From contig MELC01000068.1 in the NCBI GenBank assembly GCA_001767455.1, forward strand, positions 1 to 64,000: 64,000 bases of DNA, read 5' to 3'. How positions within the stretch are numbered: position 1 is the stretch's first letter; each line of letters begins with the position of its first letter. The translations under genes and the position numbers were made by a program. The notes below the pieces were generated by a model. That model had not been told where the DNA came from and made no database searches. It was given only the letters and a program-made list of their open reading frames with translations. Origin of the DNA: Acidobacteria bacterium RIFCSPLOWO2_12_FULL_66_21. Its GTDB lineage: Bacteria > Acidobacteriota > Vicinamibacteria > Vicinamibacterales > 2-12-FULL-66-21. Below are positions 2,363-8,490 of the stretch, one piece after another.

Positions 2363-3307
2363 TCACACGAATAACGAAGACACCGACGTCTCTTCATGAA
2401 TGCTCCGGATCGCCTGGCCGAGCAGCCGCGCGACCGAGAGCACCTTGATCTTCCGGCACTGCGCCTTCTCGCCGCCGAGCGGGATCGTGTTGGTGATGAT
2501 CACCTGGTCGATCGGCGCCGCATCGAGCCGCTCGATCGCCGGACCCGACAGCACGCCGTGCACCGCGCAGGCGAGGACCCGATCGGCCCCGTTCTGCTTG
2601 AGCGCGTTGGCCGCCTTCACGATCGTTCCCGCCGTGTCGATGATGTCGTCCTGGATGATGCAGGTCCGGCCCTTCACGTCGCCGACCACGTTCATCACCT
2701 CGGCCGTCCCGTCGTCGGTGCGGCGCTTGTCGATAATCGCCAGCTCGGCGTCGAGGCGCTTCGCATACGCGCGGGCGCGTTCCGCGCCGCCGGCATCCGG
2801 CGACACGATCGTCAGATCCGGAAACGCCAGACGCGAGCAGTAATCGATGATCACCGGCGCCGCGAACAGGTGATCGACCGGGATGTCGAAGAACCCCTGG
2901 ATCTGCGCCTTGTGCAGGTCCATCGTCAGCACGCGGTTCGTTCCGGCCGCGCTCAGCAGGTTCGCCACGAGCTTGGCCGAGATCGGCACCCGCGGCTTGT
3001 CCTTGCGATCCTGGCGCGCATACCCGTAATACGGGATGACGGCGGTGATGCGCGAGGCCGACGAGCGGCGGAACGCATCGATCATCACGCACAGCTCCAT
3101 GATGTGCCGGTCGACGTCGGTACACGTGGGCTGAATGACGAAGACGTCCGTGCCGCGGATGTTCTCGTCGATCTGGAACGAACACTCCGAATCCGGAAAA
3201 CGCTGCAGCCGCGCGTGCCCCGTCGCGACGCCCAGGAATTCGGCAATCTCCTGGGCGAGCGCGGGGTGCGCGCTGCCGGAAAACAGTTTGAGCTGGCCAC
3301 GACTCAT
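2363..3307 (-). CDS. prs: ribose-phosphate pyrophosphokinase
   Basis: 314 residues, matching bacterial class I PRPP synthases. It makes PRPP from ribose 5-phosphate and ATP for purine, pyrimidine, His, Trp and NAD synthesis. Landmarks are LKLFSGSAHPALAQEIAEFL at the N-terminus, the flexible loop YGYARQDRKD, the divalent-metal and ribose-phosphate segment MDLHKAQIQGFFDIPVDHL, and the PRPP-binding loop DDIIDTAGTI. The ATG at 3307 is chosen because the family begins MxxxxLKLFSG; the longer frame to 3358 would start almost at the tRNA 3' end. It lies 57 nt downstream of tRNA-Gln and upstream of rplY. The coding strand is typical of its neighbours. Confidence 0.96.
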   Translation of the reverse strand: MSRGQLKLFSGSAHPALAQEIAEFLGVATGHARLQRFPDSECSFQIDENIRGTDVFVIQPTCTDVDRHIMELCVMIDAFRRSSASRITAVIPYYGYARQDRKDKPRVPISAKLVANLLSAAGTNRVLTMDLHKAQIQGFFDIPVDHLFAAPVIIDYCSRLAFPDLTIVSPDAGGAERARAYAKRLDAELAIIDKRRTDDGTAEVMNVVGDVKGRTCIIQDDIIDTAGTIVKAANALKQNGADRVLACAVHGVLSGPAIERLDAAPIDQVIITNTIPLGGEKAQCRKIKVLSVARLLGQAIRSIHEETSVSSLFV

Positions 3308-3364
3308 ACGGGTCGCCGTTTCGATGCCGAAAAGACTGGAAACAACCGGGTCTGCCACTGGTTT

Positions 3365-3439
3365 TGGTTGGGGCGGGAGGATTCGAACCTCCGAATACGG
3401 GATCCAAAGTCCCGCGCCTTACCGCTTGGCCACGCCCCA
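3365..3439 (-). tRNA. tRNA-Gln (anticodon TTG)
   Basis: On the minus strand the acceptor arm is TGGGGCG / CGCCCCA, closed by discriminator A and an encoded CCA (plus-strand 3365-3367 is TGG). The D arm, the anticodon stem-loop CGGGA CTTTGGA TCCCG with anticodon TTG, and the T arm GGAGG TTCGAAT CCTCC all form. The position between ispE and prs matches the gene order in pseudomonads, where a tRNA-Gln also sits there. Confidence 0.95.
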
Positions 3440-3668: not shown

Positions 3669-3698
3669 AGTTTATCCGTTCTTACCGGTTTTTGGCAA
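3669..3698 (-). promoter_or_regulatory. possible promoter for tRNA-Gln/prs
   Basis: On the minus strand TTGCCA (3693-3698) is followed after 18 nt by TAAACT (3669-3674). It overlaps the last codons of ispE. The distance to the tRNA 5' end is about 220 nt, so a long precursor would be made. Based on hexamer match only. Confidence 0.3.
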
Positions 3699-4620
3699 CG
3701 GGGCGGGCGCGGCGCTCGTGTTCGGCGCGGGTCAGCGTCCTGGTGAGCAGCGCCCGGCCCCCCGCGCCCGCGAGCGGTTTCAGCGTGCGTTCGGCCCCGG
3801 AACGCGTCCGGAACAGACCGAAAACAGCGGACCCGCTGCCCGACATCGCGACGGCAACGGCGCCCCCCTCGCGCAGCGTGGTCTTGAGCGCCGTGATCTC
3901 AGGATGGCGCCGGACGACCGGTGGCTCGAGATCGTTGATCATCTGCGCGGCACGCGTCGGCCAGGGGACGGGCAGCATCTGGAGTTCGCGGTTCTCCTTG
4001 AGTCCCGCGGCGCGATCCTCGTCGTACCAGGCATACGCCTCTGCCGTCGAGACCCCGAAGGGTGGGCGCGCGACAACGATCCAGTGGGGCGGCAGATCGA
4101 CGAGCGGGTAGATCTCCTCGCCACGGCCGAGGCCGAGGGCGGTGCCGCCCGCGAGAAAGAACGCCACGTCGGCTCCGATAGCCGTCGCGACCTCGCGCAG
4201 CAGCGAAAACGGGACACCTCCCCACAGCCGGCCCAGCGAGACCAGCGTGGCGGCCGCATCGGCGCTGCCGCCGCCGAGTCCCGCCTGCATCGGGATGGCC
4301 TTCTCGATGCGCACGACGGTGTCCTGGGGATCCCCGGCGCGCCCGACCGCTTTCCACAGGGCCGCCGCCGCGCGCCAGACGAGATTCGTTTCGTCGAGTG
4401 GAACACCCGGGGTGCGGCACTTCACGACGAAGGCCCCCGGACGCTCGTCGCACACGATCGTGTCGTGCAGCTCGATCGACTGGAAGACGGTGCGGAGCTC
4501 GTGATAACCGTCCGCGCGGGTTCCGAGCACGCGGAGATCGAGATTCACCTTCGCATGCGCGCGGGCCGCGAGTCGCTTCTTGGAGGTCATGACATCAACA
4601 GGAGGAGGGGAGGCCCTCAC
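3682..4620 (-). CDS. ispE: 4-diphosphocytidyl-2-C-methyl-D-erythritol kinase
   Basis: 312 residues. It phosphorylates CDP-methylerythritol in the MEP isoprenoid pathway. It is a GHMP kinase: the N-terminal AHAKVNLDLRVLGTRADGYH is the diagnostic IspE start, IPMQAGLGGGSADAAATL is the ATP-binding glycine loop, and AVAMSGSGSAVFGLF is motif 3. The start is taken as GTG 4620 because GGAGAAGGAGAG lies just upstream; the internal ATG at 4590 has no visible ribosome-binding site but would give the usual N-terminus. Neighbours are the LolB-like lipoprotein upstream and tRNA-Gln downstream, as in many proteobacteria. Confidence 0.95.
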   Translation of the reverse strand: MRASPPPVDVMTSKKRLAARAHAKVNLDLRVLGTRADGYHELRTVFQSIELHDTIVCDERPGAFVVKCRTPGVPLDETNLVWRAAAALWKAVGRAGDPQDTVVRIEKAIPMQAGLGGGSADAAATLVSLGRLWGGVPFSLLREVATAIGADVAFFLAGGTALGLGRGEEIYPLVDLPPHWIVVARPPFGVSTAEAYAWYDEDRAAGLKENRELQMLPVPWPTRAAQMINDLEPPVVRRHPEITALKTTLREGGAVAVAMSGSGSAVFGLFRTRSGAERTLKPLAGAGGRALLTRTLTRAEHERRARPVAKNR

Positions 4621-4650: not shown

Positions 4651-5448
4651 TCACTCGCCGCCGCCGAGCGGTCCCGCCCGGCGCAATTCGTCCAGGGTGA
4701 GCGGCACGGCGTCGCGTGGAACCTCCACGTCGAATGCCGCCTTGTCGAGCGGCACGTTCAACTCGAGCTGCGACACGCGCAGCTTCAGGTCAGCGGCGGC
4801 GGCGCCGCCGGGCGGGGCCGTACGAATACGCACCGTCGACGCGCGGCCGGATTCGAAATCCGCGTAGTCGATGGCGACGCTGCCGCGCCGGGAGGCGGCG
4901 ACGCGCCAGCGTCCCTCGAGCTGCCGCAGGAACACCGTGGCGTCGCCGGTCTCGGCCGCCGCCCAGCCGTTCTGATACGCGCGGGGGTTCGACGGCGCGG
5001 AAAGGTCGAGGCCACAGCCGGCAATCACGAGGCGGAGCCGGGCCGGCGTCAGGGGAACACCCGCGAGCGCTTCGACAATCGCTTCCGGGGCCGCCCCGCG
5101 GAGCACGCGATTGTCGCGCGGCAGGACGAGCGTCGCGTCGCCCCCCTTCGAGACGAGCGTGAAGACGGGTTTCCCGAACGGCGCGACCCCTTCCAGGCGA
5201 AGGCTGGCGGGCGCGGCAAACCCCGCGTCGATCCGGCCGCGCAGTTTCGTCCGGCCGGCGCGTCCGGAAAGAGCCAGGGCCGCAGTGAGGGTGGACACCG
5301 CGCGACAGTCGCCCGTGGCCTGCTCGTAAGCGGCGTCAAAGCCTGGAAACGGGGCACCCGGCCCGGATGGCACCGGCACGACATGCGTGGCGCATGCGGA
5401 ACCAAGAAGTGCCGCGGCGAACACGGCCGCCGCCCAAACGCTCTTCAT
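4651..5448 (-). CDS. outer-membrane lipoprotein, LolB position (DUF4292/LolB-like)
   Basis: 265 residues. The N-terminus MKSVWAAAVFAAALLGSAC is a lipoprotein signal with Cys19 as the lipidation site. The mature part has the alternating beta pattern of LolA/LolB-fold proteins: an early STLTAALALSGRAGRTKLRGRI segment, repeated short strands, and a C-terminal DVEVPRDAVPLTLDELRR tail. Sequence alone does not prove LolB. Gene order does support it: in gammaproteobacteria lolB lies directly before ispE and often after a TPR gene, exactly as here. LolB receives lipoproteins from LolA at the outer membrane. The ATG overlaps the TPR gene stop (ATGA). Confidence 0.65.
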   Translation of the reverse strand: MKSVWAAAVFAAALLGSACATHVVPVPSGPGAPFPGFDAAYEQATGDCRAVSTLTAALALSGRAGRTKLRGRIDAGFAAPASLRLEGVAPFGKPVFTLVSKGGDATLVLPRDNRVLRGAAPEAIVEALAGVPLTPARLRLVIAGCGLDLSAPSNPRAYQNGWAAAETGDATVFLRQLEGRWRVAASRRGSVAIDYADFESGRASTVRIRTAPPGGAAAADLKLRVSQLELNVPLDKAAFDVEVPRDAVPLTLDELRRAGPLGGGE

Positions 5449-7010
5449 TTGCGGATGCGCGCGCGCACGTCGTGAAGCTTCTTCTCGACGGCCGCGCGAT
5501 CGAACGAGCGGCCGTCGCCCGAGACGGCGCGCTCCCAGGCCGCGGCGGCGTCGGCATAACGCTGCTGCTTGAACCGCAGATCGCCGAGATGCGCCTGCAC
5601 GGCCGAACTCTGCGGCAGCTCGGCGGCCGCCTTCGCCAGCGGCGCTTCGGCGAGATCGAGCCGCCCCTGCCGGTAGTACGCCCACCCGAGGCTGTCGAGG
5701 TAGGACGGATTCGCGGGATCCACCTTCAGCGCGCGTTTGAGGAGCTCCACGGCCTCGTCCAGGCGCTCGCCACGAACGGCCAGCATGTACCCGAGCGAGT
5801 TCAAGGCGTCGGCATCTTCCGGATCGCGGACGATCAGGTCGCGCAGCGCGCGCTCCGCTTCGGCAGGGTGTCCGGTCTCGTCGAGCAGGTTCGCATACTC
5901 GTACACGAACGACGTCTCATCCGGCGCCGCCGCCATCAACTTCTTGAAGGCGGCCAGCGCCTCGACCTTGGCGCCCTTGTCCTGGAGGACCTGCGCCTGC
6001 AAGTACAAGCTGCGCGGATCGCCGGGGAACGCGGAAGCGAGCTTCTGCGCCGTGGCCGCCGCACCCGGCAGGTCCCGCAGTTGACGCTGGGCCTGTCCGA
6101 GAAGATACAGCAGCGCGGGATCGCCCGACGGCGTGCGCGCGAGCGCCGCCTGCAGCAGGACGCGCGCTTCATCCGGTTTGCCCGCGTTGATGAGCGCGGC
6201 CGCCCGCCCGGTCGTCGTGTCCGCGCGGGGATCCGCGGCCTGCGCCTGGGCGTAGGCGCCGGCGGCCTCGGCGTAACGATGCTGCTTCTCGTAGAGCTCC
6301 GCAAGGCGCACGCGCCCTCGCGAGAATCCCGGATTGGCCTGCAGGAATCCTTCGAGCGTCCGCACCGCCTGGTCGAGCTGGCCGGCCTGTTCCAGCGCGG
6401 CCGAGAGCTGCATCGCCGCTTCGGGATAGCCCGGCTGGTCTTCGACGACTCTCTTGAGCGCCGGGATGGCCGCCGCGGTGTTCCCCGAGTGCAGATACAG
6501 GCGGCCGAGCATCAGATCGAGACCGATGTCGAACACGCCGTCGCGGCGCGCCTTCTCGAGCGCCGCGATCGCCCGCGACGCGTACGTGGCGGGGTCGTCG
6601 CCGGCAACGATCGCCCGCGATTGCTCGGCGAAGGCCGCATACACCGACCCGAGGATCCGGTTCCCTTCCCTGTTCGAGGGGTCGATGCGGAGCGCGTCCT
6701 CCGCGGTCCGCACGGCCTCGCGGGCGCGATCCTGCCTCGCGTAGAGCCCGGCAAGCTCCGCGCGCACTTCCGCCGAATCGGGGGCCAGCTCGATCGCGCG
6801 CTTGTGCGCGGCGATCGCCCCCTCGATGTCGCCGGTCGTCTCCAGATGGCGCCCCAACATGAAGTAGTAGCCCGCCGTCAGCTCGGACTGCGCGGACGTC
6901 CGCACGGGCTGGGCGTTGGCCATCGACACGAGCAGGAATGCCCACAGGAAGAAACAGGAAGCGCGCGCCTGGCGGGGTGCCCCCGCCGGGTAAAGAGGGA
7001 ATCGCCGCAT
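5445..7010 (-). CDS. exported tetratricopeptide-repeat protein
   Basis: 521 residues. A hydrophobic signal (CFFLWAFLLVSMANA) precedes a series of about a dozen TPR units running nearly to the C-terminus; typical copies are GDIEGAIAAHKRAIELAPDS, then the GNTAAAIPALKRVV unit, and near the end DADALNSLGYMLAVRGERLD. It most likely acts in the periplasm or anchored in a membrane as a scaffold. It is coupled by ATGA to the LolB-like gene, and a TPR gene occupies this place in pseudomonads as well. The start at 7010 places the signal at the N-terminus; no strong Shine-Dalgarno is visible, and a TATAGT lies just upstream, so the message may have a very short leader. Confidence 0.85.
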   Translation of the reverse strand: MRRFPLYPAGAPRQARASCFFLWAFLLVSMANAQPVRTSAQSELTAGYYFMLGRHLETTGDIEGAIAAHKRAIELAPDSAEVRAELAGLYARQDRAREAVRTAEDALRIDPSNREGNRILGSVYAAFAEQSRAIVAGDDPATYASRAIAALEKARRDGVFDIGLDLMLGRLYLHSGNTAAAIPALKRVVEDQPGYPEAAMQLSAALEQAGQLDQAVRTLEGFLQANPGFSRGRVRLAELYEKQHRYAEAAGAYAQAQAADPRADTTTGRAAALINAGKPDEARVLLQAALARTPSGDPALLYLLGQAQRQLRDLPGAAATAQKLASAFPGDPRSLYLQAQVLQDKGAKVEALAAFKKLMAAAPDETSFVYEYANLLDETGHPAEAERALRDLIVRDPEDADALNSLGYMLAVRGERLDEAVELLKRALKVDPANPSYLDSLGWAYYRQGRLDLAEAPLAKAAAELPQSSAVQAHLGDLRFKQQRYADAAAAWERAVSGDGRSFDRAAVEKKLHDVRARIRK

Positions 7011-7095: not shown

Positions 7096-7266
7096 ATGCC
7101 TGTCGATCCCGAACTGCTGGAAATCCTGGCGTGTCCGAACTGCAAGACGAAAGTCGAGCTCGTCAAGAACGGCACGGCGCTGAAGTGCGCGCAGTGCAAG
7201 CGGGTGTATCCGATCAAGGACGACATCCCGGTGATGCTCATCGACGAGGCCACGATCGAGGAATAG
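7096..7266 (+). CDS. Trm112-like zinc-ribbon protein (YcaR/UPF0434 type)
   Basis: 56 residues. The N-terminus MPVDPELLEILACPNCKTKV and the segment CAQCKRVYPIKDDIPVML are diagnostic: two CxxC pairs form a zinc ribbon, followed by the family YPIxDxIPVML motif and an acidic end. Bacterial members resemble eukaryotic Trm112, an activator of methyltransferases; they often sit near lipid A or envelope genes. The ATG follows AAAGAAGGA with good spacing. It is divergent from the TPR gene and precedes the heptosyltransferase. Confidence 0.85.
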   Translation: MPVDPELLEILACPNCKTKVELVKNGTALKCAQCKRVYPIKDDIPVMLIDEATIEE

Positions 7267-7409
7267 GCCGTCATGCGGCGACTCACGAGTGTTCCGGGCT
7301 CGCTTACCGCATGACGGCGGCGCGCACGGCGCGCCCGCGAGCCGGGGCCCCCGACGCGCGTTCTTTGCGCGTTGGGGTGGGACGGAGCGGCGCGGGGCGG
7401 CGGGGTCCC

Positions 7410-7456: not shown

Positions 7457-8490
7457 GTGAAGATCCTGCTGATTCGCCTGCGCCTGATCGGCGACGTGGT
7501 GTTCACGACGCCGATCCCGCGGGCGCTGAAGCGCGCGTACCCCGGGGCGCACCTCACGTACGTCGTCGAAGAGGCCGCCTTGCCGGTCGTCGCGGGCAAT
7601 CCGCACCTCGACGCCGTGATCGTCGCCGCACGGCCGGGGGGACTGCGCCGGCTCGCCGCGGACCTCGCGCTGGCGCGGCGGCTGCGGCGTGAACGGTTCG
7701 ACATCGCGATCGATTTCCATGGCGGGCCGCGCTCCTCGTGGCTGACGCTGGCGACTGGCGCGCGGCAGCGGATCGGGCGGTCGACCGGCCGCGCGCGCTC
7801 AGGCCCCGCCACTCCGTCGACAACCAATGGGACCTGCTCGAGGCGATTGACGGATGGTCCACCGGCCGGCCGGATCCGCTGCGCGACGGCGTCGAGATGC
7901 CGCTCGATCCCGCGGCCGATGCGCGGATCGCGCGGCGGCTGTCCGAGGCCGGTGTCGGCGATCGACACGAGATCGTCGTCGTCCACGTGAGCGCGGGCAA
8001 TCCGTTCCGCCGCTGGCCTGAGGCGTCGTTCGCGACGGTGGTCGCCGGACTGGCGGCCGGGTCGCCGCTGCGGCGGATCGTGCTGAGCTCCGGCCCGTCG
8101 GATCGGGCCGCGGCCGAACGCATCGCCCGCCTGGCCCGATCGGAGCTGGCGGACGCGGCAGGGCGCGTCGTGGACTTCGGCGAATTCGATCTGCGGGAGC
8201 TGCGCGCACTCGTCGCGCGCGCCCGGCTGTTCGTCGGCGGCGACACCGGGCCGCTTCACGTGGCGGCGACCACGGCCACGCCGATCGTGGGGATTTACGG
8301 CCCGACCGAGCCGGTGCGGTCGGCGCCGTGGCGCGATCCGCGGGTGCCGACCGAAGCGGTGGAAGTCAACGGCTTGCCGTGCCGGCCGTGCGATCAGCGG
8401 GTGTGTGAACCGGGCGATTTTCGATGTCTGACTACGTTGAGGCCGGAAGCAGTCCTTTCGGCGGCGGAACGCGCGCTCGGGCGCGCATGA
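7457..8490 (+). pseudogene. waaF: LPS heptosyltransferase (GT9 family), frameshifted
   Basis: Glycosyltransferase family 9 adds ADP-heptose to the LPS inner core. The first part, from GTG 7457, reads the family start KILLIRLRLIGDVVFTTPIP and continues to FDIAIDFHGGPRSSWLTLATGARQRIG near 7773. The rest of the family sequence continues in another frame from about 7780 (RPRALRPRHSVDNQWDLL), through the FVGGDTGPLHVAATT donor-site motif near 8240 and the CRPCDQRVC segment. Family members usually have about a dozen residues between RIG and RPRELRPRHSV that are missing here, so a deletion of 3n+1 bases is the simplest reading. It could be a true pseudogene or an assembly error. Confidence 0.75.

Follow-up and report, generated by a model that had tools for sequence, protein, structure and literature searches.

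The question raised by this locus is whether an acidobacterial lipoprotein gene that occupies the place of lolB also encodes a LolB. According to one review, LolB is absent outside the beta- and gammaproteobacteria, and so arose after their split from the alphaproteobacteria, and in species that lack it the Lol route may terminate in a dual-role LolA (PMC11784454). That old limit is already eroding, given the LolB-like proteins reported from Bacteroidota in 2025 (PMC11885536) and 2026 (PMC13103446); in P. gingivalis, deletion of the LolB-like gene was without effect on growth or fimbria assembly (PMC13103446). The F. johnsoniae and E. coli proteins reportedly cannot replace one another (PMC11885536). 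No earlier report of an acidobacterial LolB was found in the titles and abstract openings of the literature on LolB and the Lol pathway, of which few subscription papers were covered.

The window, that is, the whole stretch of 64,000 nucleotides that was analysed, belongs to a genome of 6475179 bases in 91 contigs. On its minus strand, a gene for a TPR protein with a signal-peptide-like start (5445–7010; Pfam TPR matches) is followed by the gene for the lipoprotein (4651–5448), a precursor of 265 residues, and the start of the latter overlaps the stop of the former (AAATGAAG). Next come ispE (about 3682–4590), recognized by its Pfam GHMP kinase domains, tRNA-Gln(TTG) (3365–3439) and, each with Pfam support, prs (2363–3358; ribose-phosphate pyrophosphokinase), rplY (1571–2260; L25 with a TL5 C-terminal domain) and pth (973–1545; peptidyl-tRNA hydrolase). 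An earlier note had equated this order with that of pseudomonads. The order itself holds both in the window and in beta- and gammaproteobacterial loci, and is presumably that of pseudomonads in particular. Loci of Burkholderiales, L094 and L099 among them, have the run from the TPR gene to pth around a true LolB; a Lysobacterales locus (L095) shares the order up to the tRNA, where the locus ends. More broadly, all seven parts are present in 10 of 20 Pseudomonadota loci (L267–L286), and a TPR match lies directly upstream of LolB in 18 of 25; of 150 genomes from the phylum to which a Trinickia genome belongs, 57 match the Pfam LolB model. The neighbour on the TPR side is thus shared with many beta- and gammaproteobacterial LolB genes, but in E. 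coli it is hemA.

Within the taxonomic order to which the window belongs, 60 genomes were searched with a profile, and 57 of them, its own included, encode a relative of the lipoprotein; the exceptions are G001, G003 and G034, which are 90, 57 and 74% complete, respectively. There is one match per genome, fragments split over contigs excepted. The complete seven-part cluster is present in 33 of 40 long loci; six of the seven incomplete ones (L036, L037, L065, L067, L069 and L071) are cut by a contig or fetch edge, and the remaining one, L035, is without a TPR match. With the lipoprotein in 57 of 60 genomes and all seven parts in 33 of 40 loci, the gene order is beyond chance.

Residues 1–18 of the precursor (5395–5448, minus strand) constitute a predicted signal peptide, which precedes the lipidation site at Cys19 (codon 5392–5394). 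The residue at position −3 is Gly, which is off the usual lipobox consensus. The alignment for the order (A1) comprises 53 rows chosen by lipobox pattern; it left out L032 and the duplicate L005, neither of which matches the pattern, the cut loci L029 and L069, and duplicates. The lipidation Cys is present in 53 of 53 aligned members, albeit partly by construction, because the rows were chosen with that pattern; L032, the sole intact locus that the pattern missed, has a Cys at this site by eye. LolA itself is a soluble periplasmic carrier without a lipid anchor, a description that does not fit a family with this Cys in all 53 rows. Retention in the inner membrane is signalled by an Asp directly after the lipidated Cys; as judged from the aligned sequences, none of the 53 rows carries one, the next residue being Ala in 44 and Gly in nine. 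Exactly two cysteines besides that of the lipidation site occur in 52 of the 53 rows. In the window protein these are Cys48 (codon 5305–5307) and Cys145 (codon 5014–5016, minus strand), the only further cysteines of the mature part, and their columns are filled by Cys in 51 and 53 rows, respectively. They probably form a disulfide that would link the first helix of the mature part to the lid region. The pair distinguishes the proteins of this order from beta- and gammaproteobacterial LolB, and the mature part of the window protein is also longer than that of E. coli LolB (247 versus 186 residues).

At the level of single sequences, the relationship to LolB is faint. The window protein has no Pfam match at E ≤ 1, scans of the single protein against Pfam and NCBIfam returned nothing, and the Pfam LolB model finds no match in its genome at E ≤ 10; a comparison at the family level was, therefore, needed. 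Eight of the 53 order members match Pfam LolB at E ≤ 0.01, and L061, which is 39% identical to the window protein, exceeds the curated cut-off (26.3 versus 23.7 bits), as the sole one among 10 members scored. Of 20 members from other Acidobacteriota, three match Pfam LolB, two DUF4292 and two LolB1_Flavo. Stray weak matches of members to VMAP-M2, DUF2092 and three NCBIfam models were one-off, and were taken as chance. In a search of 177635 PDB sequences, the five top-ranking rows for the profile of the 53 order members were all constructs of E. coli LolB (best E-value 8.2e-4). A wider profile, built from 35 Acidobacteriota members, placed six LolB rows first, of which five are E. coli constructs (E-values from 1.6e-12 to 2.9e-10) and one is V. 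cholerae LolB (4.6e-4); at E ≤ 0.001 it found LolB alone, and no LolA appeared at E ≤ 1. In control searches, a profile built from the LolA proteins of the order returned 17 rows, all LolA, and a proteobacterial LolB profile had LolB in its first seven rows.

Direct comparison of profiles gives a more mixed picture. With hhalign on the mature parts, the window family aligned to LolB at 94.8 and 96.3%, and to LolA at 93.9% one way and 39.8% the other. The corresponding values for the other Acidobacteriota are 97.3 and 97.2% for LolB, and 91.5 and 88.2% for LolA; for the Myxococcota family, LolB reached 97.7% both ways, and LolA 95.4 and 95.5%. Proteobacterial LolB and LolA aligned to each other at only 0.1%, and the reversed and neighbour-gene controls stayed at or below 3.2%, with the exception of the family aligned to itself in reverse (43.6%). 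On a comparison set of 17 LolB and 31 LolA sequences (30 from the order plus that of E. coli), the order profile produced a tie (E. coli LolB 0.0011; LolA of the order 0.001), whereas the wider profile recovered, at E ≤ 1e-3, eight of the 17 LolB and 10 of the 31 LolA, with best values of 2.2e-12 and 4.3e-7, respectively. The order profile missed LolB in three beta- and gammaproteobacterial genomes that possess one; G065 and G066 gave no match to it, and G064 a match at 0.97 over the signal-peptide part. Conversely, our own LolB and LolA profiles match the members weakly: the best order member scored 3.4e-6 with LolB and 0.0029 with LolA, and the best Myxococcota members 4.2e-7 and 8.3e-8, respectively, values that do not decide between LolB and LolA for the Myxococcota proteins. 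Two of the underlying alignments were trimmed of rows, A2 leaving out L283–L286 and A5 leaving out L311. Given these mixed profile and hhalign scores, we place the family between LolB and LolA in sequence, and nearer to LolB.

The predicted structure points in the same direction. An AlphaFold2 model based on the 53-row alignment (pLDDT 94.1, pTM 0.89) was compared with the PDB using Foldseek, which listed P. gingivalis LolB first (E-value 7.4e-9), a LolA second (9.2e-9) and E. coli LolB at rank 8 (3.8e-8). The matches of Foldseek were re-examined with VIA-align, counting rows less than one Z unit apart as ties. Among the matches listed, rows 1–7 are all LolB and represent four different proteins (Z 16.4–15.1, rmsd 2.1–3.1): those of P. 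gingivalis, V. cholerae, E. coli (four entries) and Xanthomonas, with 8orn_B named LolB. Rows 8–10 are three LolA-superfamily or DUF1329 proteins (Z 14.8–14.2, including 3buu at 14.8 and 3bk5 at 14.3), of which the first is tied with the last LolB row (14.8 versus 15.1), and LolA3 and LolA follow from Z 13.9 downwards (best LolA 13.9, rmsd 4.0). A second model, built from the 20 other Acidobacteriota (pLDDT 83.7), gave P. gingivalis LolB at Z 18.2, E. coli LolB at 15.8 and then 3bk5 at 15.6, tied with the second; LolA3 scored 14.9, and LolA came from 14.0 downwards. Thus, a fold unlike LolA and LolB, which would have told against the earlier proposal, did not come out, and the solved structures nearest to the model are LolB. 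The Bacteroidota LolB-like protein (PDB code: 9tpm) holds the first VIA row for both models, but none of the 53 order members matches either of the sequence models for that group (DUF4292, PF14125, 0/53 at E ≤ 0.01; LolB1_Flavo, 0/53).

A further structural correspondence is the protruding loop between strands 3 and 4, which is described as a LolB-specific feature in E. coli, together with a role for its hydrophobic residue Leu68 (PMC11885536). According to DSSP of the model, the profile alignment and column counts, its counterpart in the window protein is the segment Ala89-Pro90-Phe91-Gly92-Lys93 (5170–5184, minus strand), which is predicted to sit between model strands 82–88 and 94–101. Phe91, within a P-F-G motif, aligns with Leu68 (residue 89 of the E. 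coli precursor), and the tip column across the order contains 45 Phe, four Leu, one Ile and one Tyr, such that 51 of 53 rows have one of these four residues. Two Flavobacterium LolB proteins likewise have Leu or Phe at the loop tip (PMC11885536). In the 20 other Acidobacteriota, the P-x-G frame is retained (Pro in 20, Gly in 18) with mixed tips, often Ala, Thr or Ser. By eye, the LolA consensus of the order has no P-x-G loop motif. The window protein has in common with beta- and gammaproteobacterial LolB (PF03550; E. coli b1209) its predicted fold, the lipidation site, the place before ispE, and an inter-strand loop whose hydrophobic tip lies within a P-x-G motif.

The expected partners are found in the same genomes, as the earlier proposal had suggested looking for. 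LolA (PF03548) was detected in 58 of 60 relatives, with a model that also matches two archaeal control genomes, and the window's genome has its own gene at G000:C91:126167-126664, which by eye encodes a signal peptide and no lipidation Cys. This separate, non-lipidated LolA shares the superfamily fold with the window lipoprotein, but differs from it in these respects and in the lower VIA Z-scores of LolA as a class. A LolC/E-type permease is present as a single copy at E < 1e-85 in 56 of 60 genomes; the LolC/E model exceeds its curated cut-off in 18 of the 60, the window's genome included, and gives weak matches in 13 of 14 controls. In the window's genome the permease gene lies at G000:C57:25333-26544, and a LolD-like ATPase frame follows directly (by eye), in what would appear to be a LolF–LolD arrangement.

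Taking fold, sequence profile, loop and neighbourhood together, we conclude that the lipoprotein at 4651–5448 is very likely to be a strongly diverged LolB, its function being assigned by family. On this assignment, it would be anchored in the outer membrane, where it would take lipoproteins from LolA and insert them into that membrane. The strongest competitor is a lipid-anchored paralogue of the LolA superfamily, comparable with LolA3 or NE2245, that handles other lipids or special cargo and is not a general LolB. The hhalign and profile results, which relate the family to LolA too, are in keeping with such a paralogue, as are the LolA-superfamily structures that follow close behind LolB (3buu and 3bk5 for the first model, and 3bk5 in third place for the second); nevertheless, LolB takes the first seven VIA rows and the top PDB sequence rows, the loop motif is retained, and genomes of the order have, split fragments aside, one match each, at the place of lolB, with a normal LolA elsewhere. 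We regard a paralogue of this kind as unlikely.

Gene order alone is not diagnostic, because the core of the cluster also occurs without lolB: two Desulfovibrio loci (L097 and L109) have hslV and an M48 peptidase–TPR gene (by eye) before ispE, and a clostridial contig has the core genes in the same order. An unrelated or convergent lipoprotein could, accordingly, have filled the place of lolB independently in an old ispE–tRNA–prs–rplY–pth cluster; against this stand the fold and the sequence relation to LolB, as well as the TPR gene that in both phyla flanks the lipoprotein gene opposite ispE, and we consider it the least probable of the explanations weighed here. Scarcely more credible is a transfer of the whole cluster into Acidobacteriota from a beta- or gammaproteobacterium. 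Such a transfer would account for the identical gene order, but LolB of the two groups is far removed in sequence, and the arrangement extends across the acidobacterial phylum. Moreover, in a tree of IspE, Prs and Pth rooted on a clostridial locus, 34 Acidobacteriota form a clade (support 70) beside, and not inside, 16 Proteobacteria (support 100); by keeping the two groups apart, the tree speaks against a recent transfer.

The range of such LolB-like proteins extends beyond one window and one taxonomic order. In searches of large genomes, the best 8 candidates were scored for Acidobacteriota, and the best 17–18 for Myxococcota and for the phylum of one Desulfovibrio genome. Among 297 acidobacterial genomes, the order profile matches 66 and the wider profile 160, although the latter number is not a count of LolB, as weak matches confined to the C-terminal part may be LolA-superfamily paralogues. 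The wider profile gave no match in 137 of the 297 (among the best 8 candidates in large genomes), and the order profile none in Geothrix; in unmatched Acidobacteriota the gene may be lost, too diverged or missed. Forty loci from other Acidobacteriota were chosen by hand (20 of the 37 order-profile matches outside the order, and 20 further loci from wider-profile matches that had not been covered before). In 36 of them ispE lies directly downstream, and 39 are in the cluster: in L229, L347 and L362 the gene precedes tRNA-Gln and/or prs, whereas in L235 it precedes neither. As the profile is blind to neighbours, this neighbourhood constitutes independent support.

Matches were obtained in 101 of 148 genomes from the phylum of the Desulfovibrio genome, and there a TPR match lies directly upstream in 20 of 20 loci read, with ispE detected in none of them. 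Three of five members scanned pass the DUF4292 cut-off (two of the three also pass that of DUF3261 or DUF2092), and none of the five matches Pfam LolB at E ≤ 0.05; the basis for a putative LolB assignment in this phylum is, therefore, the TPR neighbour together with matches to the wide profile and to the Bacteroidota LolB-like model. For Myxococcota, 47 of 140 genomes match, and in the 20 loci read, ispE was seen in none and a TPR match directly upstream in six. Across several phyla, a TPR gene adjoins lolB-like genes upstream even where ispE is elsewhere (L327–L346, L228, L231, L356, L078 and L095), and in some loci from the phylum of the Desulfovibrio genome (L327, L331 and L336) the TPR protein itself has, by eye, a lipobox-like signal.

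The earlier suggestion that a positional homologue of LolB outside the Proteobacteria would widen its range is, therefore, supported, and on the strength of these relatives and loci, statements that confine lolB and its ispE neighbourhood to Proteobacteria look wrong. It is a plausible, if still speculative, extension, which we would stop short of calling probable, that LolB is no late invention of the beta- and gammaproteobacteria: the TPR–lolB pair and the ispE–tRNA-Gln–prs–rplY–pth cluster would have been present in the common ancestor of Acidobacteriota and Proteobacteria, LolB being later lost or unrecognized elsewhere, and the TPR protein would be an unrecognized partner in lipoprotein delivery. 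A LolB at this place in Acidobacteriota, with relatives in Myxococcota and in the phylum of the Desulfovibrio genome, would reverse the reasoning of the review, making LolB an old protein that many lineages have lost or in which it has been missed; many unnamed lipoproteins would gain a likely function, the age of LolB would become testable, and the TPR protein would be a possible missing partner.

A few further observations concern the loci themselves. Two Pseudomonadota loci (L285 and L286) encode very weak LolB matches of 176 and 184 residues (Pfam E-values 2e-7 and 4e-7, respectively) between the TPR gene and ispE–tRNA-Gln–prs, and perhaps represent another overlooked branch of LolB. In the window, a small DUF343/Trm112-type gene (by eye; 7096–7267, plus strand) lies divergently beside the TPR gene, and the majority of the 40 loci from the order have a divergent relative of it at the same spot. 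Beyond it, a heptosyltransferase-like gene (by eye; 7460–8490, plus strand) is apparently divided over two frames, with a switch near 7775–7830, and seems to be either a broken gene or the product of a sequencing error.
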